NCBI GenBank assembly: GCA_030431975.1
Contig: JAUIHP010000025.1
Coordinates: 1-64,000, forward strand
Length of the DNA stretch: 64,000 nucleotides
Origin: a bacterium
GTDB taxonomy: Bacteria > Eisenbacteria > RBG-16-71-46 > CAIMUX01
Reading direction: 5' to 3'
Shown: in pieces, positions 8,743 to 64,000 of the stretch
How the letters are laid out: each line of letters begins with the position of its first letter
How positions within the stretch are numbered: the stretch's first letter is position 1
Position numbers and translations under genes: made by a program
The notes under the pieces: generated by a model
Databases searched by the model: none
What the model was told of the DNA's origin: nothing
What the model saw: the letters and a program-made list of their open reading frames with translations, nothing else

Positions 8743-9201
8743 CTAGGCGATGGGGGGGCGATCCAATAGAAAGACCAGAGGCTCAAGCGGAGCGGACCAG
8801 AGGGATTCCCGCCACGTTTCTCCACCACACAGTGGTTGGATCCACTCGTCCGCGTTGACGAAGAGTCCAACGGCGGCGCCGGAGCAGATGCACTGATGGT
8901 GGTGGTGACTTTGCTGGTGCTCATGGGGACCGGGCGGGCACTCAGAAACCTCTTTGTGGGAACAAGCGGTCGCTTCACCGAACTCGCAAGCACACTCTGC
9001 CGGTGCGGAGACGAAGACAGCATGAGATCCCCGGGCGACAATCTCGTTGCAGGCATCCGCCTCTACACAAGGATCCAAGTCCGCGCAAACCTCGGCATCG
9101 TCGCACGGCGTCTCATGGCCCGGACCCCATCCAAGATTGGGCAGGGAACCGGCCATTACGGCAGCCACTAGGACGACTCTCAAGAGGATCTGCATAGTCA
9201 T
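8743..9201 (-). CDS. Secreted Cys/His-rich hypothetical protein
   Basis: About 152 aa. Start codons ending at 9201 and 9195 are both possible (MTMQILL). A signal peptide (ILLRVVLVAAVMAGSLPNLG) is followed by a mature region with about ten cysteines (DPCVEADAC, CACEFGEATAC) and a His cluster (HEHQQSHHHHQC), consistent with metal binding in the periplasm. No family recognised. It lies in the same direction as, and upstream of, RND system 1 and may be co-expressed with it. The stretch 9202-9615 further upstream contains no gene I can support. Confidence 0.65.
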   Translation of the reverse strand: MTMQILLRVVLVAAVMAGSLPNLGWGPGHETPCDDAEVCADLDPCVEADACNEIVARGSHAVFVSAPAECACEFGEATACSHKEVSECPPGPHEHQQSHHHHQCICSGAAVGLFVNADEWIQPLCGGETWRESLWSAPLEPLVFLLDRPPIA

Positions 9202-9615
9202 AGGTTTACATTGCCAGTAAGTACGAGGTTCCGTCAAGGGCGACAAACATGGGTCGCGGCGCCAGGAATAGCCTTCCGGTTCAGCCTTGCGGCTCGGTTT
9301 CCTATTGAGGGTTCGGCAGTTAAGGCCCAGAGGTTGACTCCAAATGTTCGCAGGATTGTTCGTGTTTCGACAGAGCGGATAGCAACCGAGGATCCTCCAG
9401 GCTCATCAGTCCACCAGATTCTCGGTCTGGACCCTATTCGGCAACGGCCATCATTGCCCAACACCGCTCTTCTGGAGGCCTCGGCTGTCGAGCGCGCTGC
9501 CGAGAAGAAGCCCGCCGACGTATCCAGCCAGCGTGAACTTGAGGAGCTAGCTCTCCGAAGCCCTCCTCGGAGTCGCCCTCGCGTTGCTTGTCGATTGACA
9601 CGCACATTCGACTGC

Positions 9616-43643: not shown

Positions 43644-45005
43644 CTAGGGCTGGGCCGAAACGAGTGCGGTCAACGGATCGACCCACCCGCTCCCGAACGC
43701 CCACGGCGGCTTCGTCCCGGTCGCGCCGGCTTTCAGCTGCTTCACCGCAACGCGACCGTCGACGAGCCAGCCGTCGATGAGGAGAGCGACACATCCGGCC
43801 GCGATCGGAGTCGCCATGGAGGTTCCCGACGCGTACCAAAGCTCTCCGCCGGGATAGGCGCTGAGAATGGTCTCCCCTGGAGCGGCCAGGGAAACCACGC
43901 TCCCGGCCCCGGACCACGCAGAGACCTTGCCGTGATGCGAAACGCTCCCGACCCCGACGGCATGGGCCGACGTCGCGGGATAGCGCGCGTCGTCATTTCC
44001 ATAGTTGCCCGCAGCGGCCAGGACGGCGATCCGGGCGGCGGAGGCATCGATCAGAGCCACTTCCATGGACTCGGATTCGTCGCTCATCGAGAAGCTGAGG
44101 TTGATGACGTCGGCTCCGAAATCGATGGCCAGGCTGAGCCCGTGCAGAATGTCCCAAAGACTGCCGACCCCGTCGTCGTTGATCACGCGAATGGGAAGGA
44201 TCTCGGCGCCGGGTGCAACCTGAACGGCGCAACCCGCCACGTGGGTTCCGTGGCCATAGGCTTCATCGACGAGACCGTCCTCGTCATTGTCGATGCCGTC
44301 CGTCGTTTCCGCCGAACTGAGCCCGAGGCCTTCCGGCAGAAGCTGCAGGCGACCGGCCAACATCGGGTGCTCGATGTCGACGCCGGTATCGAGAACGGCG
44401 ATCGTCACCCCTTCCCCGGTGGCAAACTGGTGGGCATCTGCCAGTCGCATGGTCTCGAGCCACTTCTGTTCCTCGACGACCCCGGGCTGCCAATCCCCCT
44501 CGAGGAAACCGACGAGCAGCGTCGCCACCTCGATCAGATTGACCTCGGAGTTCAGGTCCGCAGAGCGGACATAGGGATCCTGGCGGAGGCGTGTGAGATC
44601 GAAGTCCTCGGGAATCTCCATCCGAAGAAGCGTCTCTCCACCCGTTGTCACGGCCTCGACGACGGTGAGACCGTAGCGTTCCTCCAGGTAGTCGGGACTG
44701 ATGGGACCCGGAATCCGGACGACCACCTCGAGCTCGCTCGCGGGGACGAGCACGAGATCGAACTCCATATAGGGAGGCATCTCACCGCCCCCGGTCGGTT
44801 CCCATTCTGTGGTGGGATGGGCGGAACTGGACGGCGGGGACAGAGTCGGCTCTTCAGCACAGCCGACCGAGCCGAACAAGACGGAGCCCAACGAAAGGAT
44901 GAGGCCGACACCGACGACAGCACCCATGTCGGGGCCGAACTCACGGAATAGGCGTCCTCGATCAAAAAGGCTGCCCCGATTCCCCGTTCGGCTCAAACTC
45001 ACCAT
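43644..45005 (-). CDS. Subtilisin-like serine protease lipoprotein
   Basis: 453 aa from ATG 45005, or about 427 aa if begun at the ATG ending at 44927; both lead into a lipoprotein signal with lipobox GSVGC (Cys49). An N-terminal pro-region (LEVVVRIPGPISPDYLEERY) precedes the S8 catalytic domain with Asp206 (AVLDTGVD), His252 (GHGTHVAG), Asn in AAGNYGN and Ser396 (ASGTSMATP). An acidic insert DGIDNDEDGLVDE may bind Ca2+. It should act outside the inner membrane. A close paralogue is encoded at 62134-63420. Confidence 0.9.
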   Translation of the reverse strand: MVSLSRTGNRGSLFDRGRLFREFGPDMGAVVGVGLILSLGSVLFGSVGCAEEPTLSPPSSSAHPTTEWEPTGGGEMPPYMEFDLVLVPASELEVVVRIPGPISPDYLEERYGLTVVEAVTTGGETLLRMEIPEDFDLTRLRQDPYVRSADLNSEVNLIEVATLLVGFLEGDWQPGVVEEQKWLETMRLADAHQFATGEGVTIAVLDTGVDIEHPMLAGRLQLLPEGLGLSSAETTDGIDNDEDGLVDEAYGHGTHVAGCAVQVAPGAEILPIRVINDDGVGSLWDILHGLSLAIDFGADVINLSFSMSDESESMEVALIDASAARIAVLAAAGNYGNDDARYPATSAHAVGVGSVSHHGKVSAWSGAGSVVSLAAPGETILSAYPGGELWYASGTSMATPIAAGCVALLIDGWLVDGRVAVKQLKAGATGTKPPWAFGSGWVDPLTALVSAQP

Positions 45006-45192
45006 CTGACCTCTCCCTCACCCACCTTGCGACTGGCTCCACTGGCCCCACTGGCCCCGACCTGCCACGTACGGGCCGCGAAGCGGCGTTTGGATACACC
45101 CAAACTTCACTTTCTTGGAGGGACGCGACACGACCGGCGACGGACAATTGCGGCGGCCAACGATCTCGTCGACCACCGCAGGGAGAACCGGT

Positions 45193-49926: not shown

Positions 49927-50510
49927 GGAGGATCCTCTCCGGCCAGGACCGCGCGCAGCCAGAGGCAGGCGAATCGCCAATCGTCCACCGCGGTCTTCCG
50001 CGAGATTCCCTGGGCCTGCGCGACTTCCTTCCCGGTGAGACCGCCGTACACACGCATCTCGACACCTTCGGCCATTCGCGCATGACGAGCCGCCAGCCGC
50101 TTCAGGGCCTCTTCGAGTTCGAGGGAATCGATCGCAGTGTCCTTGGACATCAACGCGCCTTCGGAGTCGACCCCTTCCAGAAGGACGCGCTGCCAACCCC
50201 CGCCTCGCTTCTCGGCGTCCCGGCGTCGGGAGTGATCTATAAGGACCTGACGCATCGCGTTCGCGGCGATGGCAACAAACTGCGAACGGCTTTCCGCGCG
50301 CACGCCCTTGGTGTCGACAAGCTTGAGATAAGCCTCGTTGACCAATGCCGTGGGCTGGAGCGTGTGGTCGGCTCGTTCGTGGCGCATCCGATGGACGGCG
50401 AGCTGCTTGATTTCATCGTAGGCCGCGGCAAAGACACGTTCCGCGTCGGCTGCGGAAATGGGAGAGTCTTCGCTCGCCGCGAAAATGGCTGTGATGTCCG
50501 CGTTCGCCAT
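49923..50510 (-). CDS. ECF-like sigma factor
   Basis: 195 aa from ATG at 50510. Sigma-2 sequence KQLAVHRMRHERADHTLQPT followed by ALVNEAYLKLV, and the C-terminal DNA-binding helices (GVEMRVYGGLTGKEVAQAQG, ISRKTAVDDWRFACLWL), fit the sigma-70 ECF-like (TIGR02999-type) group. It redirects RNA polymerase to a specific regulon. The kinase gene overlaps its 3' end by 4 bases, so the two are probably one functional pair, with the kinase taking the place of an anti-sigma factor. Confidence 0.9.
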   Translation of the reverse strand: MANADITAIFAASEDSPISAADAERVFAAAYDEIKQLAVHRMRHERADHTLQPTALVNEAYLKLVDTKGVRAESRSQFVAIAANAMRQVLIDHSRRRDAEKRGGGWQRVLLEGVDSEGALMSKDTAIDSLELEEALKRLAARHARMAEGVEMRVYGGLTGKEVAQAQGISRKTAVDDWRFACLWLRAVLAGEDPP

Positions 50511-51035
50511 GATTCCGAGCCTCGAATTGCAGATCGTTGACCAGCCGCGAAACCCGGACCGACTTCTTCTCTTTCCCAGTCCTTCTTCTCTTCCCGGTAG
50601 AACCGGGGAGGGCCGACGGTGAGCGGGAGCGAGGACGGTCCGACGTGGATAGGATCCTAGCCCGATCTCTTCATGGAGGTCTACATCAGTGGCGGATGGA
50701 GGCCGGGCTCGCGGGTCCGAACGAGGAAGCGGGTGCGGGGTGAAAGGCCAATGCAAAAATGAGGACCGGTCAATCACCTTGATCTCGTAGAATATTCCTG
50801 GCTTCGTCCCGCTGCGCCTGTTTCACACGACTCCCGTCGGGTGGCGCCGCCCTCTCAGGGACATGGGAAGTGATTCGGTGGCGATTTCCTGGGTGAAGGA
50901 ATTGGGTGCGAAGACGCTCCGTGCGGGTCGACCCCAACGTTGACGACCGGATGGGGGCGCCTCAAAGCGCAATATCGGTAGAGCCCGAGCGGACAGCTGC
51001 GGCGACCGCAAAACAAACTGCAGAGGAGCTTCTCG
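50511..51035. other. Intergenic region without a supported gene
   Basis: 525 bases between the sigma factor and the Cys-rich secreted protein. Likely holds both promoters, but I could not place convincing -35/-10 elements. No RNA or repeat seen. Confidence 0.45.
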
Positions 51036-53582
51036 ATGAACGCAGCGAGCTGCCAAAGCGGACCGACCTTCCGACTTCGCCAAAGGCCCACTCCGATTGG
51101 GTCGTGGGTTCTCGCGCTCTTCCTCGCCACCCACGCCGCGGTCGGCGCCGAGCTTCCGATCGCCGAGCTGGGCGGTTCACAGACCGGTCGTGTAGAAGCG
51201 CCAGCGGAAGACTGCGGTCAGATTCTCTTTAATGCCGATCTGAGCTACGAGAACGGGTACACGTGGCAGTACAGCGGCATCGTACCTCCGGACTATGGAG
51301 CATTCGCCGAAGGCTATGGCGTATCCGGAATCGTGTGCGCGGCGCATATCGACCTCAGCCAGGTTGGAAATCAAATCAGTCAGGTTCTGGACGTCTATGT
51401 TTGGGACGACGACGGCGGGCTGCCGGGCGCCGTGCTCTACCTTCTCCCCGGGCAGGATCCGGGTGGCGTAGCGTTTTGGCCGTCACTCAGCCGACACACC
51501 TTTCCCGTCGATGCAACACCAGACGGCTCCTGGTGGATCGGCTACTGGGGTAGTTGGCCGGGACAGGTCGGAGCCTACTTTGTGGGCGCCGACCTCGACG
51601 GACCGGGCGGATTTCCGATGACGAAGATCGCGCCCGGACTGGGCTTTCCAACCGGGTGGCAAAACGTGAGCGTCGCCTGGGGTCCGACGCAGGCTATCGC
51701 CATCGGCGCCGAACTCATTGGCGGAGACTTCGGCGCCTGCTGCTATGAAGATGGTCGCTGTGTCCTCAGCGCGGAAGAGAATTGCGACGGAGTCCTTCAA
51801 GGTCCAGAGACGAACTGTGTTCCCAATCCGTGTCCGCAGCCGCCGGAAGGAGCCTGCTGCTTTCCGGACGGGTCGTGTGAACTCCATGATGAGTTCGACT
51901 GCGCCACACTCGGCGGAAGCTACTTCGGGGCAGAGACTCCCTGCGATCCCAATCCGTGTCCCCAACCTCCCAAGGGTGCCTGTTGCTTCCCCAACGGCAA
52001 CTGCGTCTTCGTGGACGCGTTCGACTGCGAAGCTCTGGACGGTTCCTATCTGGGTGACGACATCATCTGTACACCCAACCCGTGCCCACAGCCGCCCGAT
52101 GGAGCATGCTGCCTGAACAGCGGTTCCTGCATTTTCATCGACATGTTCGAGTGCGCCATCGAAAACGGCGAGTATCAGGGCGACGGGATTCCCTGTGACC
52201 CCAACCCTTGCGTGCCGGGAGCCTGTTGCTTCGAGGACGGAAGCTGCGGCCTCGTGATCGCTCGCGACTGCGACGCCGCAGGTGGAGACTTCCTCGGACC
52301 GGACGAAAGCTGCAGTCCCAACCCGTGTCCGCAACCGCCGGTCGGCGCCTGCTGTTTCCCCAACGGAAACTGCCAGACCCAGGATCGCTTCGACTGCGCG
52401 GACGGCAACGGCGACTACCTGGGAGACGGTGTTCTCTGCGACCCGAATCCGTGTCCTCAACCACCTGAGGGCGCCTGTTGCCTGCCGAACGACAACTGCG
52501 TCCGTCTCGACGAATTCGAATGCGCGGACCAGGGCGGCGCCTATCTCGGTGAAACCGTGTTGTGTGATCCGAACCCCTGTCTCGAAGGAGCCTGCTGTCT
52601 GGGTGACGGCAGTTGCGTGGTTGGAACCCCCATCGACTGCGACGAATGGCTCGGTGAGTACCAGGGCGCAGAGACAAGCTGCGATCCCAATCCGTGCCCG
52701 CAACCTCCAACAGGAGCTTGTTGTCTAGGCGACGGATCCTGCGAAACCCTCACGGACTTCGACTGCGAACAAGCCGGCGGGATCTTCTACGGCGAAGGAG
52801 AACTCTGCGAGAACCTGAACTGCCCCGTTCTCTGTCCGTCACCCGAGCCGGTACGGCCGAGCAAGAGATCACAACGGAACCGGGTCGGGGCCGGCCCCAA
52901 CTCCGGCGGAACCCTTATCATCCACCACAACGAAGCACTGCAGTTCACTTCCGTCGAAGACTTCTGCAACGAATCGGAGCTCTTCACGTGCGCCGATGCC
53001 CAACCACGAGTCGATCGGTCCGGGCCCGTCATCTTCCACGTGCTTTCCGCCTTCCCGTCCACTGCCGAATCGCGACTCGCAGGGGTGACCTTCGGGATCA
53101 ACTACCCCGACTGCGTCATTCTGCTGGCCGCCGGCCACTGCGGAGACTTCGAAGTCGACATGGCTGAGTGGCCCGATCCCGAGACCGGAACCGCCGTGAC
53201 CTGGACCGAACCCCAGACTTCGAATCTGGTCGAGGTCTACTGGTTCGCCGGTTACGTTTTCGATGATCAGGTCGCTACGGTGAGCGCCATCCCCCACCCC
53301 ATCCAGGGCGGGTACTTCGGCGACGACAGCATTCCATCGATACTCGACCCGATCACCGGCTACGGCGTTCTCGGCTTCTTTGGACCGGGTTCCGCACCGT
53401 GCCCGGATCCGGAAGGAGCGTGCTGCCTACCCGACGGACTGTGCGAGATCGTCTTCGAGTCCGAATGCGTCACGCAGGGCGGGCAGTTTCTCGGGGTAGG
53501 GACGACGTGCGATCCGAACCCGTGCTCAGTCGTTCCGACCATCGACTCGTCGTGGGGGCAGCTCAAGCACCGCTTCCGGTAG
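51036..53582 (+). CDS. Secreted Cys-rich repeat protein (10 GACC-type repeats)
   Basis: 848 aa from ATG 51036, with GAGGAG upstream. A signal peptide (residues about 15-38) is followed by a domain of about 170 residues with aromatic beta-type sequence. Then come nine tandem repeats of about 38-42 residues (from about 232) with consensus GACC-x-x-x-G-x-C-x8-C-x3-GG-x-Y-x-G-x5-C-PNPC-PQPP, a 200-residue spacer domain, and a tenth repeat near the C-terminus. Six conserved cysteines per unit suggest disulfide-stabilised extracellular modules. Such proteins occur in large numbers in FCB/planctomycete-type genomes. Function unknown, perhaps adhesion or surface structure. Confidence 0.85.
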   Translation: MNAASCQSGPTFRLRQRPTPIGSWVLALFLATHAAVGAELPIAELGGSQTGRVEAPAEDCGQILFNADLSYENGYTWQYSGIVPPDYGAFAEGYGVSGIVCAAHIDLSQVGNQISQVLDVYVWDDDGGLPGAVLYLLPGQDPGGVAFWPSLSRHTFPVDATPDGSWWIGYWGSWPGQVGAYFVGADLDGPGGFPMTKIAPGLGFPTGWQNVSVAWGPTQAIAIGAELIGGDFGACCYEDGRCVLSAEENCDGVLQGPETNCVPNPCPQPPEGACCFPDGSCELHDEFDCATLGGSYFGAETPCDPNPCPQPPKGACCFPNGNCVFVDAFDCEALDGSYLGDDIICTPNPCPQPPDGACCLNSGSCIFIDMFECAIENGEYQGDGIPCDPNPCVPGACCFEDGSCGLVIARDCDAAGGDFLGPDESCSPNPCPQPPVGACCFPNGNCQTQDRFDCADGNGDYLGDGVLCDPNPCPQPPEGACCLPNDNCVRLDEFECADQGGAYLGETVLCDPNPCLEGACCLGDGSCVVGTPIDCDEWLGEYQGAETSCDPNPCPQPPTGACCLGDGSCETLTDFDCEQAGGIFYGEGELCENLNCPVLCPSPEPVRPSKRSQRNRVGAGPNSGGTLIIHHNEALQFTSVEDFCNESELFTCADAQPRVDRSGPVIFHVLSAFPSTAESRLAGVTFGINYPDCVILLAAGHCGDFEVDMAEWPDPETGTAVTWTEPQTSNLVEVYWFAGYVFDDQVATVSAIPHPIQGGYFGDDSIPSILDPITGYGVLGFFGPGSAPCPDPEGACCLPDGLCEIVFESECVTQGGQFLGVGTTCDPNPCSVVPTIDSSWGQLKHRFR

Positions 53583-53618
53583 GATGAAGTTGGTGGTAGA
53601 TTGCAAACTTGGTTTTGA

Positions 53619-53692
<74 letters not shown>

Positions 53693-53772
53693 CATCCTTC
53701 CATCCAACTGTCGACGGACCGCGTATCAATGGGCCATCGACCGCCAGAGCGTTTTCCACCGCTCATGACGAA

Positions 53773-53814
53773 GGGCAGTGAGACCCGATTTCCGAGTCTC
53801 CCTGCCCTCTTTTC
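53773..53814 (+). terminator. Intrinsic terminator after tRNA-Arg
   Basis: GGGCAG-T-GAGAC (53773-53784) pairs with GTCTC-C-CTGCCC (53796-53807) around an 11-base loop, followed by TCTTTTC. Suitable as the end of the tRNA-Arg transcript. Confidence 0.75.
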
Positions 53815-53901
53815 ACCTGGATCTCGACCGCCGGTGTCACCGCATTAACGACGACGGCGGCGTGAATCGGATCTTCAATTCAAGTCTTCGTTGTGTCGTT
53901 T

Positions 53902-54273
53902 CTACGGACAGTCGAGACACGAGGTCACGATGTCGTCGACGGTCTGTACGCCGCCGTTGCTGTAGACGATCTTGAAGCGGTAGTCGCTCGAGGCATCTCC
54001 GCAGTACGTGAAAGACGTCTCGTTGCAACCGACCGTGGCGATCTGAACCCAGCCGCCGTCACAATCCTGGTCTGCAAAGATGGTGATCTGGTCGCAGCCG
54101 CAACTGGACTGGTCATACCAGTCGATCTGCCAGGCGGTCGTTCCAAATTGAAGGCACGGAGAAGAACTGCAGGAAACAGTCGGAGCCGATGCGCTACAGA
54201 CGGCAAAGGAAGGGGCGGAAACCAAGGAGATCAAGGCTGCCGCAGCAAGAGAAGTAGTCAAGAAACGCTTCAT
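53902..54273 (-). CDS. Small secreted Cys-rich protein
   Basis: 123 aa from the ATG ending at 54273 (signal peptide MKRFLTTSLAAAALISLVSA). The mature part has about ten cysteines and beta-type sequence (FGTTAWQIDWYDQSSCGCDQ, ITIFADQDCDGGWVQIA, YRFKIVYSNGG), ending CLDCP. Folding probably depends on disulfides outside the cytoplasm. No family recognised. Stands alone. Confidence 0.75.
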   Translation of the reverse strand: MKRFLTTSLAAAALISLVSAPSFAVCSASAPTVSCSSSPCLQFGTTAWQIDWYDQSSCGCDQITIFADQDCDGGWVQIATVGCNETSFTYCGDASSDYRFKIVYSNGGVQTVDDIVTSCLDCP

Positions 54274-54731
54274 CGGATAGGTCCTTTCGTTGTTTGTCGG
54301 CCAGTTGGCCCACTCGTCGCGCTCCGTTTGTTTAACGTTGTCGCGACTGATCGGGAAACTACGGATCGCCATCTCCAATGTATAGAAAGACATCATTGAA
54401 CTTCGCTGCCTTTACCCGCGGATCGCCTACGATGTTTTACAATGGCCTTCCAACATCGTCATCAACGACCTTTCATGTTCATTTCCGAACGCAAGTGCCC
54501 GAACTCGGACAAAAGACACGGCCTCTTCGTTTGCCAGACGAACAAACTGTCGCGCGCCCCGTCGCAGGTCCGAATCCGCGCCAAAGGAGGGCGGCAGGGT
54601 CACGACTCCCACGACTCCCACCGACGCCGCTACCCGACTTGCCACTCTCGGAATTCAGCCTAAACTGAGATGAGATTGCCCATTACCGGTTCCAAGCACA
54701 CACTTCGCCCCAAACGGAGGACCCTAGAACG
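54274..54731. other. Intergenic region without a supported gene
   Basis: 458 bases between two divergent genes. AT-richer around 54370-54440; no RNA, repeat or firm promoter identified. Confidence 0.4.
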
Positions 54732-55199
54732 ATGACGAATCCCCAACCAGACGCGCAGACCGCGGTGTACCGAGTCGTGGCTCACCTCCATGTCGCCGAC
54801 GTCGAGGACTCCGTGAGTTTCTACCGCCTTCTGGGTTTCGAACCGGACGAATGGGTTCGAAACGCCGACGGCCAAGCCATCTGGGCCTGCGTCAAACGGA
54901 TCGAACCGGGAGGCGCTTTCGCGGAGATCCACCTTGACCGGGCCAGTGCTCCGGTGATCCCGGAGGAGCAGGCGATCCTGCTCTACATGTACTCACGGGA
55001 TGTCCGCGGGCTTCGGTCCCATCTGATCGAAAACGGACTTCACAACGGTGGGAAGTACGTCGGGCAACCAGGCCCGAATGGCGGAAAGCGGGTCGTTTTC
55101 GACGTCTACGAGCCGGGTCACATGCCGAAGGGCGAACTGCGCGTGGCCGACCCCGATGCCTACTGTCTGCTCATCGGGCAGCTCGGTGATGCGGGATAG
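54732..55199 (+). CDS. VOC-superfamily (glyoxalase/bleomycin-resistance fold) protein
   Basis: 155 aa. The motif VAHLHVADVEDSVSFYRLLG is the first beta-alpha unit of the vicinal oxygen chelate fold. FAEIHLDRAS and the C-terminal GKRVVFDVYEPG and GELRVADPDAY complete a single domain, which would dimerise. His and Glu ligands for a metal are plausible but the specific reaction cannot be read from sequence. Confidence 0.88.
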   Translation: MTNPQPDAQTAVYRVVAHLHVADVEDSVSFYRLLGFEPDEWVRNADGQAIWACVKRIEPGGAFAEIHLDRASAPVIPEEQAILLYMYSRDVRGLRSHLIENGLHNGGKYVGQPGPNGGKRVVFDVYEPGHMPKGELRVADPDAYCLLIGQLGDAG

Positions 55200-55243
55200 A
55201 GGTTCGGATTCTGTGCAAGTCGAATGTTGAAGAAAAGAAAGAA

Positions 55244-55263
55244 GGGGAGCGCAAAGGCTCCCC
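55244..55263 (-). terminator. Perfect 7-bp hairpin flanked by an A/T-rich run
   Basis: GGGGAGC-GCAAAG-GCTCCCC. Read on the minus strand it is followed by TTCTTTCTTTTCTTC, like an intrinsic terminator, although no minus-strand gene lies upstream; on the + strand it follows the VOC gene and could stabilise or end that transcript. Confidence 0.45.
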
Positions 55264-55358
55264 TCCAGAGGTTCGCAGTAGGAATAGGCCGTTTACTCCT
55301 GAGCGAACTGCGGGAACCTACGACGCTTTGACGGACAAAGCGAGTGAGAAGTTTAGTC

Positions 55359-56012
55359 ATGTCTGACCCCGTCAGCCGCATCCAGCTACAAACACGACAC
55401 CGGCGCATTTTGGTTCTGTACGCACACCCCGCGACGCAAAAGTCCCGCGTAAACAAGGTTCTCGCCGCCCGAATTCGGGCGATCGAGGGGGTCACGTTCC
55501 ATGACCTCTACGGCCACTATCCCGAATTCGACATTGACGTTCAGAAAGAGCAGGCTCTCCTCAACTCCCACGACGTCATCGTCTTTCAGCATCCCTTTTT
55601 CTGGTACTCGACTCCGGCGATCCTCAAGGAATGGCAGGACTTGGTTCTGGAACACGGATGGGCCTACGGTCGGGATGGGACGGCACTTCGGGGCAAACTG
55701 TTCCTGAGCGTGGTCACGGCTGGAGGGGGCCAGGCTGCCTACGAACCGACCGGTTACAACGCCCGAACGGTCAGGGACTTTCTGGCACCGATCGAGGGAA
55801 CGGCCAAACTTTGCGGCATGACGTTCCTCGCCCCTTTCGTCGCGCACGGCACTCATGCGATGAAGTCCGATCACATCGAGAAGCACGCACACGAATATCG
55901 TGACCTTCTTCTGGCACTGCGCGATGACCGACTCGACATCGAGGCCGCCTCCGCGCGCGACCTTCGCTTCCTCAACTCCAGCTTCGACCGGCTGATTCGG
56001 ACGGAGGACTAG
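55359..56012 (+). CDS. Flavodoxin-fold NAD(P)H:quinone oxidoreductase (KefF-like)
   Basis: 217 aa from ATG 55359. RRILVLYAHPATQKSRVN is the flavin-binding first strand and loop, HPFFWYSTPAILKEWQDLVL is the substrate/flavin region of KefF, MdaB and mammalian NQO1-like enzymes, and VVTAGGGQAAYEPTGYN follows. Somewhat longer than KefF of E. coli (176 aa). It ends 4 bases before the KefC-like gene, so it is the likely cytoplasmic regulatory partner of that transporter. Confidence 0.9.
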   Translation: MSDPVSRIQLQTRHRRILVLYAHPATQKSRVNKVLAARIRAIEGVTFHDLYGHYPEFDIDVQKEQALLNSHDVIVFQHPFFWYSTPAILKEWQDLVLEHGWAYGRDGTALRGKLFLSVVTAGGGQAAYEPTGYNARTVRDFLAPIEGTAKLCGMTFLAPFVAHGTHAMKSDHIEKHAHEYRDLLLALRDDRLDIEAASARDLRFLNSSFDRLIRTED

Positions 56013-56016
56013 ACCG

Positions 56017-57987
56017 ATGTACGGCGAGAGTTTCTTCCTGCAGGCAATGCTCTACCTCGGGGCCGCCGTCATTGCCGTCCCCATCGCCAAGCGGCTGGGT
56101 CTCGGATCCGTCCTCGGTTATCTGTTGGCCGGAATTGCCATCGGCCCTTTCGGACTCGGACTGGTCGGCGAAGAAGGACAGGATGTCATGCACTTCGCCG
56201 AGTTCGGTGTCGTCATGATGCTTTTTCTGGTCGGGCTCGAGCTGCGCCCGCAACTTCTGTGGGAGATGCGCGGCCCGATCCTGGGCCTCGGCGGTTCGCA
56301 GGTCGCGATAACCGCGGTCATCATTACAGCTATCGGTCTGGCCGTGGGTCAGGCGTGGCAATCGTCACTGGCCGTCGGCCTGACGCTGGCGTTGTCGTCG
56401 ACGGCCATTGTGCTGCAGAGCCTGAACGAAAAAGGGCTCATGAAGACCGAGGCTGGCCAGTCGAGTTTCGCCGTCCTTCTGTTTCAGGACATCGCCGTCA
56501 TCCCCATGCTGGCTCTGTTTCCGATGCTTGCCGTTCAGGCGATGACGGGTGGGTCCGGGGAGGGCCTTGGGGGCGACGACGGGCAAGATCCGGGTCTCGG
56601 ACACGGACATGGTCCAAACCACGCGGAAGATCACGGCGCCCCTGAAACCTGGCTCGAAGCTCTCGACCTTCCCGGTTGGGCAGAGACATTGGTCGTCATC
56701 GGCGCTGTTCTCGCGATCATCCTGGCCGGCCGCTACCTCTTCCGCCCCTTCCTTCGTTTTGTCGCGGGAACCCGGCTTCGCGAAACATTCACAGCGGCGG
56801 CGCTTCTTCTGGTCGTCAGCATCGCGCTACTCATGACCAAGGTCGGGCTGAGCCCTGCGCTCGGAACCTTCCTCGCCGGAGTCGTTCTCGCCAACAGTGA
56901 GTACCGGCATGCCCTGGAGAGCGACATCGAACCGTTCAAGGGACTGCTGCTCGGCGTCTTCTTCATCGCCGTGGGCTCGTCGATCGACTTCGCTCTCATC
57001 GCGTCAGAACCGGGCGTGATCAGCGGACTCGTCGTCGGAATCATCGTCCTCAAGCTGGTCGTTCTCTTCGTTCTGGGAAAGCTTTTCAAGCTTCCGTTCG
57101 ACCAGAATCTCATCTTCTCGTTTGCCTTGGCACAAGGCGGTGAGTTCGCCTTTGTCCTCTTCTCCTTTGCGAGGCAGTCAGGAGTACTGACGACGGAGGT
57201 GACGGCTCCCCTCATCGCATCCGTTGCTCTGACCATGGCGCTGACACCGCTACTCATGATCTTCAACGAGCGCGTTCTCCAACCTCGGTTCGGAACCCGA
57301 CGCGCCGAGGCTCCGGAGGTCGCGGCAATCGATGCGCAGAGCGCCGTCATCGTCGCAGGTTTCGGTGACTTCGGGGGCACGGCCGTCCGTTTTCTTCGCG
57401 CGAATGGCATTCAGCCCGTCGTCCTGGAGCACGACTCCGAGCGGGTCGAACTTCTACGCCGCCTGGGGTTGAAAGCGTTCTACGGGGATGTCCGGCGACA
57501 CGATCTACTCCACGCGGCCGGCGCAGAAGAGGCACGCATCCTGGTCGTCGCGGTCGGGGGTCACGAGCGCCAACTCGAAGTGATTCACATGGCGAAGAAG
57601 CACTTTCCCCACCTGGAAATCTACGCCCGGGCAGAGGCCTGGTTCGAAGCGTTCGAGCTCATCCAGACCGGCGTCCGACACGTTTACCGGCAGAATGCCG
57701 ACACCGCGCTGCGGGCCAGTGCGGATGCGCTGTATGCATTGGGCTATGAGCGGCACCAGGTTCACCGCGCGGCTCAGCGGTTCCGCCGCCATGACTTCGA
57801 AGCCATGCACGATCTGGCCAAGACGTGGGGCGATGAAAAGGCCTATATGAACCTGGCGAAGCAGCGAATCGAGAATCTCGAGAAGATCATGCTGGCGGAA
57901 ATGGAGGACGGCACGCCCCACGATCAAGGATGGGACGTCGAGACGCTACGCGACGAATTCGGCAACCTTGTCGAAGCGGACACCTAG
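56017..57987 (+). CDS. KefB/KefC-like glutathione-gated K+/H+ antiporter
   Basis: 656 aa. Residues 1-410 form a CPA2 antiporter domain of about 12-13 helices (AVPIAKRLGLGSVLGYLLAG, GVVMMLFLVGLELRPQLLW, STAIVLQSLNEKG, FQDIAVIPMLALFPML, ALGTFLAGVVLANSEYRHAL). The C-terminal RCK/TrkA-N domain (VIVAGFGDFGGTAVRFLRAN, then VLEHDSERVELLRRLGLKAF) binds nucleotide or glutathione. A Gly/His/Asp-rich loop between helices (about 185-212, GHGHGPNHAEDHGAPE) is unusual for the family. Exports K+ to acidify the cytoplasm under electrophile stress. Confidence 0.93.
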   Translation: MYGESFFLQAMLYLGAAVIAVPIAKRLGLGSVLGYLLAGIAIGPFGLGLVGEEGQDVMHFAEFGVVMMLFLVGLELRPQLLWEMRGPILGLGGSQVAITAVIITAIGLAVGQAWQSSLAVGLTLALSSTAIVLQSLNEKGLMKTEAGQSSFAVLLFQDIAVIPMLALFPMLAVQAMTGGSGEGLGGDDGQDPGLGHGHGPNHAEDHGAPETWLEALDLPGWAETLVVIGAVLAIILAGRYLFRPFLRFVAGTRLRETFTAAALLLVVSIALLMTKVGLSPALGTFLAGVVLANSEYRHALESDIEPFKGLLLGVFFIAVGSSIDFALIASEPGVISGLVVGIIVLKLVVLFVLGKLFKLPFDQNLIFSFALAQGGEFAFVLFSFARQSGVLTTEVTAPLIASVALTMALTPLLMIFNERVLQPRFGTRRAEAPEVAAIDAQSAVIVAGFGDFGGTAVRFLRANGIQPVVLEHDSERVELLRRLGLKAFYGDVRRHDLLHAAGAEEARILVVAVGGHERQLEVIHMAKKHFPHLEIYARAEAWFEAFELIQTGVRHVYRQNADTALRASADALYALGYERHQVHRAAQRFRRHDFEAMHDLAKTWGDEKAYMNLAKQRIENLEKIMLAEMEDGTPHDQGWDVETLRDEFGNLVEADT

Positions 57988-57992
57988 CTAGC

Positions 57993-60740
57993 CTAGCCCA
58001 CGACGACGAACGGCGCCCAATGGAACGGATGCGGATGAAGATCCCGCAGCCGCGCTCTGGCCTTCGCTGCGGCCGCCGGAGCCGTCTCCCCCGTGGACCA
58101 TCGCTCGTAGAACGGTTTCGAGAAACCGCGCGCGGCATCGGCGTCGATGCGCCACGCCGTCAAGACCAACTCTCGCGCACCGGCAGACAGCGCCGCAGCA
58201 ATCCAGCCGTCAAAGTCCGAACCCGGCATGAGCTCCACGACACCCGATTCGCAGCTGGTGAACTGGACCAATGCGCCATCCAGAAGCTCTTTCCGCAGGT
58301 GTTCGAAGCCAACCCATCCGTCGGAAAGTTCCAGACCGGACATGAGCCAACCGGAGCGGTGAAACGTTCCGTGAGCTGCGACATGCAGCGCCCCGACCGG
58401 ACCGCGAACCTCGTCCAGGGCCGCCCGTCCGGTTCCGGTTTCCACCTGGAAGCCGGAGTGTCCGAGTTGGGCCGCGACATCCTCGATCTCTTCCGACATG
58501 GAGTCATCCGGCCCCGCCAACAGCAACGCATTCTGCAACGGCTTCCGTTCGCGCTGCGCCAGTAGCGATGGGTGGGGCAACCGGGAGACGGTCCGCCCGT
58601 TCCGGTCCATCGACTCGAGCGGCAGGCTGTGGAGTTCGCGAAGTGGAATGACCACGACGTGATCGCTGTTCAAAGGAAGGGGATCCCAGAACGCCCGGCG
58701 CAGTGACTCGAGACTCTTCGTGCTTTCGACCAGAGTCCGGTCGAGAAACTCCGTGCGCCGCGTCTTGGGAGCCCGGCTCGCGGTCTCGAACGTGAGGCGC
58801 AAAGCAAACCAGTCGCGGGCCAGAGCTTGTTCGCCGCCCGGAAGCGGAACAAACCGCGAGGTACCGTCGGCGCGCACGACGAAGGCGCGCCAACCCTGGT
58901 GATAGTCGTAAAGCACGACGTCCCGACCGCGAAGGTGCTTTTTCCAACGGTCGAAGCCGCGGTCCCGATGGGCGGCCCGCACGAGTTGCGGTGTGCGGGC
59001 GAGCACCCGGGTCAGCCGCTTGTCGAGCTGCTCCATCTGTCCCTGCAAGGAACGGGAACGAAGGTCCTCGGTCTCTTCATCGGGATTGGACGAAAGCAGC
59101 TGGTCACGCAGTCGAACGATGGCCGCTCGCGTGTCGGGAAGCATCTCACTCGACCGACCCTGCAACAGATCCTCGATGAGAACGGGCGACCGCGCTCGCG
59201 AGAGCAGGTCGACCGCGGTCTCCTCGGCCCGCTCGCCGCCGCACTCCAGGATGACATCGATGGCTGGGCCGTAGACCGCAGCCCGTGATCCGCCGACCAG
59301 AATGCGAAGCTGGCGCGTCCCGAACTTGAGGAGTAGTTCTTCCAACAGATCGACCGCCCGCTTGGCCCAACGAACCGCTTCCGCGTCGCGACCCAGTCGC
59401 GCCGCAGCTTGGGCGCGAACCAGTGCCATCGTCGGTCGCTCCAACTTGGCCGGATGCTTCTTTGCATCTGCATAGGCGCGGGTTGCCGCCTGGTGGGCTC
59501 GCGAGTTCTTTCCTTGAACGAGATACGCCTGAGCAGCCCGCGCCCGAGCCAAGGCACCATCGCTGTGCGGACTTTTCCGATCGAGGTAGCCCTGGCTCTT
59601 TCGCAGTCGGGCCAGCGCTTCGTCAGCCCGGTTCTCCGCCAAAAGGACGGGCGCCATCTCCACATTGACACGATGTTTCAACCACGTGTGTCCGACGTCG
59701 GTCCAATGCCGGGAGGCCCGCTCCAAATGTACCAGGGCTTCGTTGTGGCGGCCCTGTCCTGCCAGCAAACGACCCAACAAGCACTCGGCGTGGGCCGCGT
59801 CCATCTCCAAACCCAACTCTCGGTAGAGCCGAAGGGCCGACTCCGCAGCGGGAACGCCCGCTTCGCTGGCGCCGACTGAGGAAAAGAGCAAGGCCAGCTC
59901 TCGCTGAAGCCACGCCTCGCCACGCCGATCTCCTCTGGAGGTGAACACCTCACGAATCCGTTCGATCTCGTTCAGTCCGCGCTGCCAATCGCCGTCTGCA
60001 ATGTCCAAGGCCGCGAGCACGGTGTGACTGTAAAGAGACGGCATGTGGTCGTCGCCGCCGGAGTAGAACTCCAACGCCTGCCGACAGGCTTTTCGCGCTT
60101 TCTTCGACTCACCCAGCATGTGGAAGACGACACCGAGGTTGTGCGCGGTGACCGCAGCATCCCCGGGTGACTTGGCTGCACGAAACAGCTTGAGGGCCTT
60201 TTCGGATTGCTCCGCGACGAGATCCAAACGGCCGACGGTCATCCAGGCGCTACCGAGGTTGGCTTCGAGACGGGCCTGCAGGATTCGGTCGCGCGCCTGA
60301 AGGAGCTGGATTCCACGCGCGGCCACTTTGCGCGCCTGGGAAGCCCGGCCCGCCATCCCCAAGGCGAAGACCCAGCCGATCGCCGTGCGTCCCTCTTCCA
60401 TCCGGTCGCCGAGCTTGCGAAACGCCTTCGCCGCCGATTCGTAAGCCGGCAACGAACCGGACACATCACCCGAGGAAAAGAGAGCATGTGCGCGCAATCG
60501 CAAGAGCCGGGCCTGCCCTGCCGCATCCAGGCCCCGACCGGCGAGCGCCTTGTGGAGACGATCCACGGCGCGAGCGGTCAGAGCCGGGTCGATTCGGCAA
60601 CCGACAACAAGGTCGTCGTAAACGGCAGCAAAGTCGGAAGCCAGTGCGTCCGCCTCCGTCGCCTTCATTCGGGACGGTCCACTCGTCAAAGACCGGAGCC
60701 GTTCACGGACGGCGTCCTTACGGTCGGCGATTTCGTTCAT
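57993..60740 (-). CDS. TPR-CHAT caspase-like protease
   Basis: 915 aa. Residues about 30-480 are tandem TPR repeats (HNLGVVFHMLGESKKARKAC, SALRLYRELGLEMDAAHAEC, YLVQGKNSRAHQAATRAYAD). The C-terminal CHAT domain (about 600-915) has the catalytic dyad His790 (HVAAHGTFH) and Cys830 (QFTSCESG), the pair of the caspase/separase clan. TPR-CHAT proteins include Csx29, the protease of type III-E CRISPR craspase. Here the gene is third in an operon with an ECF sigma factor and a small protein, 32 bases after the latter. Substrates are unknown. Confidence 0.9.
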   Translation of the reverse strand: MNEIADRKDAVRERLRSLTSGPSRMKATEADALASDFAAVYDDLVVGCRIDPALTARAVDRLHKALAGRGLDAAGQARLLRLRAHALFSSGDVSGSLPAYESAAKAFRKLGDRMEEGRTAIGWVFALGMAGRASQARKVAARGIQLLQARDRILQARLEANLGSAWMTVGRLDLVAEQSEKALKLFRAAKSPGDAAVTAHNLGVVFHMLGESKKARKACRQALEFYSGGDDHMPSLYSHTVLAALDIADGDWQRGLNEIERIREVFTSRGDRRGEAWLQRELALLFSSVGASEAGVPAAESALRLYRELGLEMDAAHAECLLGRLLAGQGRHNEALVHLERASRHWTDVGHTWLKHRVNVEMAPVLLAENRADEALARLRKSQGYLDRKSPHSDGALARARAAQAYLVQGKNSRAHQAATRAYADAKKHPAKLERPTMALVRAQAAARLGRDAEAVRWAKRAVDLLEELLLKFGTRQLRILVGGSRAAVYGPAIDVILECGGERAEETAVDLLSRARSPVLIEDLLQGRSSEMLPDTRAAIVRLRDQLLSSNPDEETEDLRSRSLQGQMEQLDKRLTRVLARTPQLVRAAHRDRGFDRWKKHLRGRDVVLYDYHQGWRAFVVRADGTSRFVPLPGGEQALARDWFALRLTFETASRAPKTRRTEFLDRTLVESTKSLESLRRAFWDPLPLNSDHVVVIPLRELHSLPLESMDRNGRTVSRLPHPSLLAQRERKPLQNALLLAGPDDSMSEEIEDVAAQLGHSGFQVETGTGRAALDEVRGPVGALHVAAHGTFHRSGWLMSGLELSDGWVGFEHLRKELLDGALVQFTSCESGVVELMPGSDFDGWIAAALSAGARELVLTAWRIDADAARGFSKPFYERWSTGETAPAAAAKARARLRDLHPHPFHWAPFVVVG

Positions 60741-60772
60741 GGCGGCGGCCCCTGCGCCTTTCGTTCTGCGAT

Positions 60773-61270
60773 TCAGGTTGCGGGATTCTTCAGCTCGAGC
60801 ACGGTCCGATTCGGAAGATGAAGTTCCAAGGTCCAGCCTGCGGCCACAGTCTCTTCGAGTTCGAAGGGAACGCCGTTTTCTACGTCACAGGCGGTAATCA
60901 CGTGTTCCTCGTGAAGCCAAATCAGCTTGGCCGGTTTGTCGCCGGCCTCATGGAGCCAGAGGATTCCCCGCATGGACCAACGCCCGCCGTAGCCGGTGTC
61001 GGCAACGACCAGCCCAAGTTCCCCTTCGTCGAAGGTCTCGGTCAGAGTCACCGGACCCACGCCCAAATCGACGGTCGGCGCTGAGCGAACATCGGCAGCG
61101 GAATCATCTGTCCACTTCAGGTTCCTGATCTGTGAGTCCGCGGCTGCACCGTCGCGACCCGGCGCCGCGTCAGGCTCTTTCGAGAGCAGGTCTGCAACGA
61201 GGTTATTCGGAGGGTTCTTCCACTCTCCGGTTGCCGAAGCCTTCTTCAGAATGTCATCGAAACGGCTCAT
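60773..61270 (-). CDS. Uncharacterised protein coupled to sigma factor and CHAT protease
   Basis: 165 aa starting ATG 61270, overlapping the sigma factor's stop by 4 bases (ATGA). No signal peptide or membrane helix. Residues 1-70 look disordered and acidic (LLSKEPDAAPGRDGAAADSQ); 75-165 look like one beta-rich domain (VGPVTLTETFDEGELGLVVA, LHEAGDKPAKLIWLHEEHVI, WTLELHLPNRTVLELK). No family assigned. Position between sigma factor and protease suggests it regulates one or is cut by the other. Confidence 0.8.
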   Translation of the reverse strand: MSRFDDILKKASATGEWKNPPNNLVADLLSKEPDAAPGRDGAAADSQIRNLKWTDDSAADVRSAPTVDLGVGPVTLTETFDEGELGLVVADTGYGGRWSMRGILWLHEAGDKPAKLIWLHEEHVITACDVENGVPFELEETVAAGWTLELHLPNRTVLELKNPAT

Positions 61271-61965
61271 CGTTCGGCTACAGCTTCTCGGGTTCCGTTT
61301 TGATCCTCACGAATCGAGGATGTCTCGGCCGTGGGACGACTCATCCCTTCACTTTCTTTGAGGACACGCCGCAGCCGCTCGAGACAACGCCCCCGGATCG
61401 GTCCAATCGATCCGACGGCCATTCCCGAACGACGCGCCACTTCTTTGTATCCCTGCGGACCCGTCCGGTAGAAGAGTTCTCGCAGAAGCTCCGCGCACTT
61501 GCCTCCCAGTCGGTCGAGAGCCCGTTCGATTCGCACCCGCGCGTCTTCGTCGGAAGCAAGTTCATCCGGGAGTATCCCCGGATCCGGAATGTTTCGAAAC
61601 TGTCCATAGATGAAGCGTCGGTGGCGGGCAGCGTACTTGTAGGAGAGCCGGCGCGTCGCCACTTCGAGCCACCGGGGAAGGGCCTCCGGACTCTCGATGG
61701 TTCGAATGCGGCGATGCAAGTCGATCCAGACTTCCTGTGCGACGTCTGCGGCATCGTCTTCTTCGAGTCCGACGCGTCGAGCCGTAGCCACGACCAGGTC
61801 CTGGAATCGTTCGACGAGTTCGGACCAGGCGCGGTTGTCACCGCCTCTGCACCGTAGAACGAGTTCGAGCTCGCTGGTGCGGAGCCTCCGCGGCAAACGC
61901 GAAACGTCGGATCGTTTTCGATCCTCCGCCGACGTCGTCGTGACAGGTTCGAGCGGTCGGTGCAC
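61267..61965 (-). CDS. ECF sigma factor of the CHAT cluster
   Basis: 232 aa from GTG 61965. Region 2 (DNRAWSELVERFQDLVVATA, VAQEVWIDLHRRIR, LPRWLEVATRRLSYKY) and region 4 (GYKEVARRSGMAVGSIGPIR, CLERLRRVLKESEGM) define an ECF sigma factor. A 35-residue polar tail follows. It overlaps the next gene by 4 bases. No anti-sigma membrane protein is adjacent, so activity may be controlled by the small protein or by the CHAT protease. Confidence 0.92.
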   Translation of the reverse strand: MHRPLEPVTTTSAEDRKRSDVSRLPRRLRTSELELVLRCRGGDNRAWSELVERFQDLVVATARRVGLEEDDAADVAQEVWIDLHRRIRTIESPEALPRWLEVATRRLSYKYAARHRRFIYGQFRNIPDPGILPDELASDEDARVRIERALDRLGGKCAELLRELFYRTGPQGYKEVARRSGMAVGSIGPIRGRCLERLRRVLKESEGMSRPTAETSSIREDQNGTREAVAER

Positions 61966-62133
61966 TCTCCCGTTCCCATGACGCAGTCCGACACGACCCG
62001 ACCCGACAGAACTTGTGGGTAGGCGGTGCCGGCCCCGGTGCCGCCGGCGCTACCGCCGACGACCGGGTGATTCGGTTCACCCAATTCGGGCGCCGAGATC
62101 GCGTTTGGATACATGGGAGTGTGCAAGTTCATT

Positions 62134-63420
62134 TCAAAGGTCCCCGTCGCCGCCGATCTCGAGCACGGCCTGCAACGGATCGACCCGTCCGTACTCGACG
62201 GCATTCGTCGGATTGACGGGCTTCGACGTCAGGGTGACACAGCGCGCTCCAATCAGCGGGGAGACGCGGTGCGCCTCGATGGCCAAAGCAACGGAGCCGC
62301 TCACGATCGGTGTCGCCATGGAGGTTCCAGTCCCGAAGGCAGCCTCGGCGCGAGGATATCCACTGAGAATCAGTTCGCCCGGAGCGGCCACAGCAATGCC
62401 GTTCCCGGACCCCGACCACGAAAGAAGTTCGTCGTCATCCGTGACTGCGGCAACTCCCAACGTATACGGCGAGGTGGCAGGATACGTCGCGGCCTCGTTG
62501 CCGTAGTTGCCGGCTGCGGCGATGACGGCGACGCCCTTCAACCAGCACTCTTCGAGAACCGCGTCGAGCGCGGTTTGCTGTGACGCCACCGAGATACTCA
62601 GGTTGATCACGTCCGCATCCATGGCCAGGGCCAGCTTCAGCGCTTTGACGATGTCCCACAGACTCCCGACTCCGTCGTCCGTGATGGCCCGGATGGGGAC
62701 GAGCTGTGCGCCGGGCGCGACCAACGCGACACAACCGGCGACGTGCGTGCCGTGTCCGAATCCTTCGTCCAGCTCGCCGTCCTCGTCCTGGTCGATGTGG
62801 TCCTTGTATTCCTCGGACTCGAACCCGGAGTCGTCAGGCAACTCGACCGTACGCCCGCGCAGAAGCGGATGTCGGGAATATGCGCCCGTATCGATGACGG
62901 CCACGCGAACGTCGTCCCCCGTCGCCACCGCATGAGCCGACCGGAGATTCAGGTTGTTCAGCCACTCCTGGTCGTCCACCGCCTCCTGGTTGAATCCGCC
63001 TTCGAGAAAGCCGACGAGCAGAGTTTGGACCTCGCCGATGAAGACCTCGGCATTCGGGTCCGCGCCGGTAACCCCCTCTTCATGACGAAGGGCGGTGAAG
63101 TCGAAACCCGTCGGGATGTCATAGCGGACGAGCAGGCCGTCCGGAGTCTCGACGATCTCGATGATGTCGATCTCGTAGGCGGCTGCGATCTCGTCGGGAT
63201 CGCCGTTCGAATCGAAGACCACGACCGCTTCGTTGTCGTTCGGAAGCACCAGCCGTTCGACGAAGTTTTCCATCTGGAAGTGGGCGAGCGCCGGAGCATC
63301 CATGGCCAGCCCGTCCGACTTGGACCCAATGAGGTTGTCGTCCGGCGAGCACCCCTGAAGTCCGCTCCCCGCCGCCACCGAAACCGCTACCGCCATCAAC
63401 CCCAACGTCTTGGACCGCAT
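62134..63420 (-). CDS. Subtilisin-like serine protease lipoprotein next to the CHAT cluster
   Basis: 428 aa from the ATG ending at 63420; upstream codons of the longer frame are not protein-like. Lipobox LQGC (Cys24). The pro-region precedes the S8 domain with Asp177 (VIDTGAYS), His223 (GHGTHVAG) and Ser367 (GTGTSMATP). Acidic DQDEDGELDE may bind Ca2+. It aligns along its length with the lipoprotein protease at 43644-45005 (GFLEGGFNQEAVDDQEWL versus GFLEGDWQPGVVEEQKWL). 168 bases upstream of the ECF sigma gene and on the same strand, so it may belong to the same module. Confidence 0.88.
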   Translation of the reverse strand: MRSKTLGLMAVAVSVAAGSGLQGCSPDDNLIGSKSDGLAMDAPALAHFQMENFVERLVLPNDNEAVVVFDSNGDPDEIAAAYEIDIIEIVETPDGLLVRYDIPTGFDFTALRHEEGVTGADPNAEVFIGEVQTLLVGFLEGGFNQEAVDDQEWLNNLNLRSAHAVATGDDVRVAVIDTGAYSRHPLLRGRTVELPDDSGFESEEYKDHIDQDEDGELDEGFGHGTHVAGCVALVAPGAQLVPIRAITDDGVGSLWDIVKALKLALAMDADVINLSISVASQQTALDAVLEECWLKGVAVIAAAGNYGNEAATYPATSPYTLGVAAVTDDDELLSWSGSGNGIAVAAPGELILSGYPRAEAAFGTGTSMATPIVSGSVALAIEAHRVSPLIGARCVTLTSKPVNPTNAVEYGRVDPLQAVLEIGGDGDL

Positions 63421-63720
63421 ATGACCACCTCCTGGGAGTCCCCCTCCCGTCCACGCGAGGGAAGACCCACATGTTGCAACGCATCCCAAACCGTTCATCC
63501 GTACCGGCCAGCGACCTGGGTCGTCGAAGGCCGGCTGATTGTCTGGGCAGGCAAGGGAGCTTGAGATACACCCTATTTGAACTTTTTTGTCGGGAACGGA
63601 GGAAGGGGATTCTGGCTTCTGGCCAGCCATAGGCCACATGACCTGTAGACTCACGTCCGTCGGGGACTTCGAGGACTCGCGTCTCGCCGGCGGCCAGGCA
63701 CACCGGAAACGTCTTGAGCC
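63421..63720. other. Intergenic region without a supported gene
   Basis: 300 bases, likely with the subtilase promoter. No convincing -35/-10 pair, RNA or repeat. Confidence 0.4.
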
Positions 63721-63912
63721 TTAGGAACGCTTGTAGTTGCCGGTGACCCGGGCCATCAGCTGCTGCGCCTGTGCCGGGTTCATCTTGCCGACGCGGGCGC
63801 GGAACTTGTCGGCTGCGCCCCCCCGGAGCGTCGTGACGACCCTCCCGTCACGGGAGATGAAGACCTGCCCGTCCTTGGCGATTCGGTAGCTGAACCCGAG
63901 GTCTTCGGACAC
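63721..63912 (-). CDS. Small basic hypothetical protein
   Basis: 63 aa starting GTG 63912, 3 bases after the RdgB-like stop codon. FSYRIAKDGQVFISRDGRVV looks like a small beta-hairpin unit, and the C-terminal half (KFRARVGKMNPAQAQQLMAR) is helical. No signal peptide. Function unknown; probably transcribed with the gene upstream. Confidence 0.6.
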   Translation of the reverse strand: MSEDLGFSYRIAKDGQVFISRDGRVVTTLRGGAADKFRARVGKMNPAQAQQLMARVTGNYKRS

Positions 63913-63915
63913 GTT

Positions 63916-64000
63916 CTAGAGCTCCGCGAGGCGGGCTTCGATGAGAGCTCGGGCCTTGGCGAGCGCGCGGCCGCGGTGGCTGACCGACCGCTTCTCCTCC
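63916..64000 (-). CDS. 3' end of an RdgB/Ham1-like XTP/dITP pyrophosphatase (partial)
   Basis: The minus-strand frame ends EEKRSVSHRGRALAKARALI then EARLAEL at TAG 63916-63918. E-K-x-x-[IVL]-SHRGRAL is the C-terminal signature of RdgB/Ham1 nucleotide-pool sanitising enzymes. The remainder lies beyond the window, so this is judged from 27 residues. Confidence 0.75.
   Translation of the reverse strand, partial: EEKRSVSHRGRALAKARALIEARLAEL

Follow-up and report, generated by a model that had tools for sequence, protein, structure and literature searches.

The described systems closest to the locus analyzed here include two with an ECF sigma factor and a CHAT protease. In the type III-E CRISPR Craspase pathway, the protease Csx29 cuts Csx30, which inhibits the sigma factor CASP-sigma (PMC10028731). 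The second is the ECF54 group of extracytoplasmic function (ECF) sigma factors, which have CHAT, subtilase, and 'carboxypeptidase' domain proteins encoded nearby (Huang 2015; Casas-Pastor 2021; as reviewed in PMC8999054) and are filed under both 'proteolysis' and 'without anti-sigma factor' (PMC8999054). The subject of this analysis is a gene cluster in a 64,000-nucleotide stretch of DNA (the window; positions 1 to 64,000 of contig JAUIHP010000025.1, assembly GCA_030431975.1) from a 6.19 Mb genome of the bacterial phylum Eisenbacteria. The cluster encodes an S8 subtilase, an ECF sigma factor, a small protein of 165 residues, and a TPR-CHAT caspase-like protease. To our knowledge, most bacterial TPR-CHAT proteases have no known substrate. 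The locus is likely to be a cytosolic protease-gated sigma-factor switch, in which the CHAT protease would act on the small protein, a candidate anti-sigma factor, to release the sigma factor.

The initial annotation of the window placed the four genes on one strand, with the sigma and small genes overlapping and the protease gene following 32 bases later. All four open reading frames were confirmed on the minus strand (Table 1); the sigma and small genes share 4 bases (ATGA), and 32 bases separate the small-gene stop from the CHAT start. The sigma-small-CHAT operon starts at 62113/61965. A 168-base gap to the sigma gene and its own copy of a promoter-like motif make the subtilase gene a separate transcription unit. 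Pfam identifies CHAT (E=3e-22) and TPR (E=8e-18) regions in the 915-residue protein and Peptidase_S8 (E=1.6e-35) in the 428-residue subtilase. The catalytic residues noted earlier in both proteases are intact. An alignment of CHAT relatives shows an invariant His790/Cys830 dyad, and the D177/H223/S367 triad of the subtilase and its N305 are invariant among close relatives. The CHAT domain resembles Csx29/TPR-CHAT structures (profile match E=2e-17 to 5e-14), which bears out the suspected kinship with Csx29, and the type III-E system likewise has a TPR-CHAT protease with a His-Cys dyad.

Matches to Sigma70_r2 (Pfam, E=1.8e-8) and TIGR02937 (E=4e-16) identify the 232-residue protein as an ECF sigma factor of the sigma2-sigma4 type. 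In the sigma tree the window copy belongs to a clade (support 0.94) in which 58 of the 65 members adjoin a CHAT gene, and it groups in one clade with module sigma factors from three phyla. Among generic ECF sigma factors scoring 50-100 bits, CHAT lies within 3 kb in just 3/71. The surroundings agree with those published for ECF54, namely CHAT, subtilase, and carboxypeptidase-type domain proteins, and the ECF54 assignment rests on this gene context. What is shared with ECF54 is thus an ECF sigma factor beside these three kinds of protein, with proteolysis already suspected; the coupled topology, linker arginine, and promoter motif described below are new relative to it.

The module recurs well beyond this locus. 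The host genome has 10 CHAT genes, every one with a sigma-70 region 2 gene within about 4 kb and six with an S8 gene within 5 kb (35 S8 matches genome-wide). The 40 sigma matches in the genome give about 0.07 expected per 10 kb, which puts the CHAT-sigma clustering above chance. CHAT genes occur in 34 of the 47 genomes of the phylum, with up to 15 per genome. About 100 of these loci, containing 107 CHATs, were fetched and their genes called with a codon-usage script; the dyad histidine is present in 106 and the cysteine in all 107. A sigma gene is nearby for 74/107, and the strict order sigma-small-CHAT or CHAT-sigma-small is found at 56/107, with S8 next in 16 of the 56. The sigma factor was also used as the only bait against about 590 genomes from one actinobacterial and one acidobacterial phylum, where strong matches were found in 38 and 28 genomes, respectively. 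In 40 loci fetched from these two phyla, the small gene is present in 37, CHAT in 35, and S8 in 32. Other close copies are present in Krumholzibacteriota records. The sigma - small protein - TPR-CHAT - subtilase module, whose conserved synteny had been proposed as a check, therefore recurs in at least three phyla.

The cellular location of the CHAT protease is matched to that of the small protein. Export signals and membrane helices were assigned by hydropathy. A cytosolic CHAT protease without an export signal accompanies a soluble small protein at 21 loci, and a CHAT protease with an N-terminal export signal is paired with a small protein containing a transmembrane helix at 32 loci. The two traits match in 53/56 pairs (Fisher p=1.5e-12, a value that overstates independence because the loci are related). 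The three mismatches involve a borderline helix score in the small protein, a doubtful CHAT start, and a CHAT gene cut at a contig end. The acidobacterial and actinobacterial sets contribute 29 pairs, every one of them cytosolic-soluble. Mapped on the CHAT tree, one trait shows about six changes and the other about five, almost always jointly. Most simply, this match means that the CHAT protease targets whichever portion of the small protein shares its compartment. The transmembrane version has the same topology as the RseA/DegS/RseP, RsiW, and RslA systems, in which an anti-sigma factor of the zinc-associated anti-sigma type is removed by proteolysis, as proposed here; the module differs from these in having as its protease a CHAT enzyme with the caspase fold, which is encoded in the same operon and comes in cytosolic and exported forms. 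At L161, L156, L129, L187, and other loci, an exported CHAT gene is followed by a sigma gene and then by one for a transmembrane zinc-finger anti-sigma-like protein, an arrangement that is an envelope version of the same circuit and is common in the phylum. A third recurrent arrangement, consisting of a sigma factor, a transmembrane protein of 570-610 residues, and an exported CHAT protease of about 1050 residues, is found at L158, L160, L181, L184, L190, and L192.

The linker of the small protein contains a candidate cleavage site. Among clan CD proteases, separase and metacaspases cleave after arginine, and a single arginine in the otherwise indel-rich linker is conserved in 60/61 soluble small proteins from three phyla; in the last one it is shifted by one residue. 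Its conservation equals that of the structural glycine and phenylalanine of the beta-sandwich, and the residue that follows is mostly serine, glycine, or alanine. When the linkers were shuffled, non-anchored arginine columns reached about 0.33, and the sole high column was the unshuffled arginine at the start of the beta-sandwich. For the transmembrane class, arginine alignment alone is weak evidence, since shuffles reach 0.94. Counting a motif is more telling, with [VLMIF]R[GDSA] located after the membrane helix in 26/35 proteins when 11 would be expected and 500 shuffles gave at most 18. The corresponding residue of the window protein, Arg62, sits in a low-confidence loop of the AlphaFold model. 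From this conservation pattern, the invariant arginine is a candidate CHAT cut site.

The small protein is the least familiar component. Pfam assigns no family to the 165-residue protein, and a related-locus search with it returned no relatives; a whole-genome search did find relatives. The family is bipartite. In many members the N-terminal half carries an H-x(3-4)-C-xx-C motif with a weak zf-HC2 match, and a profile of 16 relatives compared with the PDB has RslA (3hug, E=9e-4, residues 16-62) and RsiW (5wuq, E=1.4e-3) among its top three matches. These two matches cover the N-terminal half of the profile, and the C-terminal half matches a beta-sandwich protein. The Pfam domain CarboxypepD_reg, detected in the C-terminal half of nine family members, is probably the source of the 'carboxypeptidase' reported near ECF54; whereas ECF54 was described without an anti-sigma factor, that domain is here probably half of the candidate anti-sigma protein. 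The AlphaFold model of a relative has four N-terminal helices and a beta-sandwich. The model of the 165-residue protein has two short helices, a disordered linker, and a confident beta-sandwich that is immunoglobulin (Ig)-like or CarboxypepD_reg-like. Foldseek searches with both models returned mostly Ig-like beta-sandwich proteins and left the anti-sigma half undecided. A PDB search with a profile of the protein's own clade gave no match, including none to an anti-sigma factor or Csx30. The HxxxCxxC zinc motif is missing from the window protein and present in its near relatives at L021 and L039 and in a large share of the family as a whole, so the 165-residue copy represents a reduced version. 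The acidobacterial and actinobacterial sets also include similarly short members from which the zinc motif is absent. By these profile and fold comparisons, the family looks like the missing anti-sigma factor of ECF54, with a zinc anti-sigma-like N-terminus (degenerate here) joined to a beta-sandwich, and this assignment is new. A single subtilase at L018 (G002:C628) lies between two distinct members of the small-protein family, ahead of one CHAT, which suggests duplication of the candidate anti-sigma factor.

The filing of ECF54 under proteolysis without an anti-sigma factor corresponds to another account, proposed in reviews of the group, in which the sigma factor is itself the substrate that the CHAT protease or the subtilase degrades. 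Loss of the zinc core from the 165-residue protein agrees with this account, but it is unlikely to be correct: a small gene with anti-sigma features lies 3' of the sigma gene in 37 of the 40 loci retrieved with the sigma bait, the topology ties CHAT to the small protein, an exported CHAT protease could not reach a cytosolic sigma factor, and the mature subtilase is extracytoplasmic. The small protein could instead be a positive partner or substrate adaptor of the CHAT protease, such as a peptide that is delivered or an inhibitor of CHAT, with no binding to the sigma factor. In its favor, only the last helix, the linker arginine, and the beta-sandwich are common to every member and the zinc anti-sigma core is repeatedly lost; the anti-sigma matches at the family level and the position of the small gene, almost always directly after the sigma gene even when CHAT is on the other side of it, make this improbable.

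A shared promoter-like motif connects the sigma factor to the subtilases. An initial promoter search with exact 5-mers found nothing, and the motif TG[CT]ATC-N16-GCCC emerged after the upstream region of a second subtilase gene, 17 kb from the first and with no adjoining CHAT gene, was added and mismatches were allowed. The window has three copies versus 0.33 expected, a number reached in 0/100 shuffles, and all three are in the correct orientation, 5' of the sigma gene and of each subtilase gene. The whole genome contains 19 copies, compared with 20 of the reversed motif used as a control. Of the 19, 14 are intragenic and five intergenic, and the sigma and subtilase genes account for three of these five. 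The motif occurs with equal spacing 5' of the sigma and S8 genes at L039 (where they are divergent) and L041 and 5' of the S8 gene at L018. From these sequence matches, the sigma factor appears to drive its own operon and the exported subtilases. The subtilases are probable outputs, and they are read as output rather than input because the subtilase is exported while the CHAT protease is cytosolic here. The initial annotation included the subtilase in the cluster and gave it no role; its membership stands, and the motif adds the probable one of output. The best NCBIfam match of the subtilase is TIGR03921 (mycosin; E=8e-39), and it shares the intact triad with mycosin-like S8 subtilases. It differs in its score of 133.8 bits, which falls short of the family cut-off of 278.75 bits, in being of the lipoprotein type, and in that no type VII secretion genes were seen.

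The switch would operate in four steps. The small protein would bind and hold the ECF sigma factor. The TPR region would then sense a cytoplasmic signal or partner and activate the caspase-like CHAT domain, which would cut the linker of the small protein, most likely after Arg62, and free the sigma factor as in the Csx29/Csx30/CASP-sigma pathway. The last step is strongly indicated by sequence: the free sigma factor would recognize TGYATC-N16-GCCC and turn on its own operon and the lipoprotein subtilase genes. Autoactivation of the sigma-small-CHAT operon would provide feedback by which the inhibitor is reset, and the exported subtilases encoded at the locus and 17 kb away would be the output acting outside the cytoplasm.

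A CRISPR-free counterpart of the Csx29/Csx30 logic was suggested in the initial annotation. The synteny, anti-sigma features, matched topology, linker arginine, and shared promoter support that logic; homology to Csx30, for which there was no PDB match, gained no support. The module and the type III-E system share a TPR-CHAT protease, an ECF sigma factor, a two-part inhibitor with a sigma-binding N-terminus (a candidate one in the module), and the proposed logic; here there is no Cas7-11 or CRISPR, and the output is a subtilase instead. Csx30 has 565 residues versus 165-230 for the small proteins, and they are not detectably related; Csx30 was absent among the fold matches listed for the 165-residue protein, with no direct comparison to Csx30 made. 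No RAMP/Cas7-11 match was found in the host genome and no array-like repeats in 50000-64000. PADLOC models gave no match to the sigma, small, or CHAT proteins except a weak TPR one; the matches at the locus are all generic, with a subtilase model for the S8 protein (E=5e-14) and TPR and IetS models below threshold. The defense reading was set aside on the generic PADLOC matches and the lack of RAMP genes. A role in defense or programmed death, raised with the initial annotation and in which CHAT activation would kill or arrest the cell with the sigma factor and subtilase as helpers, draws on the operation of CHAT proteases in Craspase and gasdermin systems and on the relation to Csx29, and is given little credence since no nuclease, pore former, or nucleotide sensor was found (in line with the earlier remark that no effector nuclease or toxin is visible), the neighbors look like housekeeping genes (rdgB, rph, murI, and smpB-like upstream and a convergent kefC-like antiporter downstream, named from translations by eye), and physiology is a better fit for the large number of chromosomal paralogues in each genome and for the connection of the promoter to secreted subtilases.

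Several observations weigh against the protease-gated switch. The arginine specificity is an extrapolation from other members of clan CD, since Csx29 cuts Csx30 at residues 427-429 and no residue there is essential (PMC10028731). The zinc anti-sigma matches are individually weak (E about 1e-3), and the profile link of the 165-residue protein to the zinc family spans its C-terminal part only. This copy lacks most of the N-terminal anti-sigma helices and has no zinc ligand, and its grip on the sigma factor is unproven for that reason. The topology was assigned by hydropathy and not with SignalP. The promoter motif was derived from regions that include the validated ones, and no exact copy precedes the L017, L019, or L021 genes. 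L017 (G000:C20) consists of a sigma factor and a small protein with the conserved arginine and has no adjoining CHAT gene. This pair (9035-10095) belongs to the same clade as the window pair (52% identity for sigma, 39% for the small protein), and it may be served by the window CHAT protease, because the linker arginine is kept there.

Two other features of the window were recorded. A second ECF sigma gene (49923-50510) overlaps the gene for a 1258-residue protein with an N-terminal Ser/Thr kinase domain (46150-50510, minus strand), forming a non-canonical ECF-kinase pair. An exported protein of 848 residues (51036-53582, plus strand) contains repeated Cys-rich units of about 40 residues (GACC-x-x-G-x-C...CxPNPCPQPP).

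Table 1. Features of the sigma factor-CHAT locus and its predicted regulon in the window.
Feature	Position	Strand	Remarks
TPR-CHAT caspase-like protease, 915 aa	57993..60740	-	no export signal; His790 codon 58373-58371, Cys830 codon 58253-58251
Small protein, candidate anti-sigma factor, 165 aa	60773..61270	-	two N-terminal helices, linker 37-72, beta-sandwich 73-162
Arg62 codon in small-protein linker (...AADVR/SAP...)	61085..61087	-	candidate CHAT cleavage site (slash), inferred
ECF sigma factor, 232 aa, GTG start	61267..61965	-	CHAT-associated sigma clade, ECF54-like
Promoter-like motif TGTATC-N16-GCCC, 5' of sigma-small-CHAT operon	62088..62113	-	upstream-region comparison
Lipoprotein-type S8 subtilase, 428 aa, ATG start	62134..63420	-	triad D177/H223/S367
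Promoter-like motif TGTATC-N16-GCCC, 5' of subtilase	63545..63570	-	upstream-region comparison
Second lipoprotein-type S8 subtilase	43644..45005	-	46% identical to first; predicted regulon member
Promoter-like motif TGTATC-N16-GCCC, 5' of second subtilase	45073..45098	-	upstream-region comparison

The wider proposal, to which we give even chances, is that CRISPR-free circuits of CHAT protease, anti-sigma factor, and ECF sigma factor are widespread in at least three phyla and two topologies (cytosolic, or exported with an anti-sigma factor that spans the membrane), that they work by a cut after the linker arginine, and that Craspase is a specialized offshoot of this older type of signaling. ECF54-type sigma factors have so far been filed as being without an anti-sigma factor. 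If the proposal is true, many CHAT genes would gain a substrate in the product of a neighboring gene, a cut site, an output, and, in the promoter of the subtilase gene, a reporter. Much of the bacterial repertoire of caspase-like proteases would then serve signal transduction, and the Craspase pathway would gain a plausible non-CRISPR origin.

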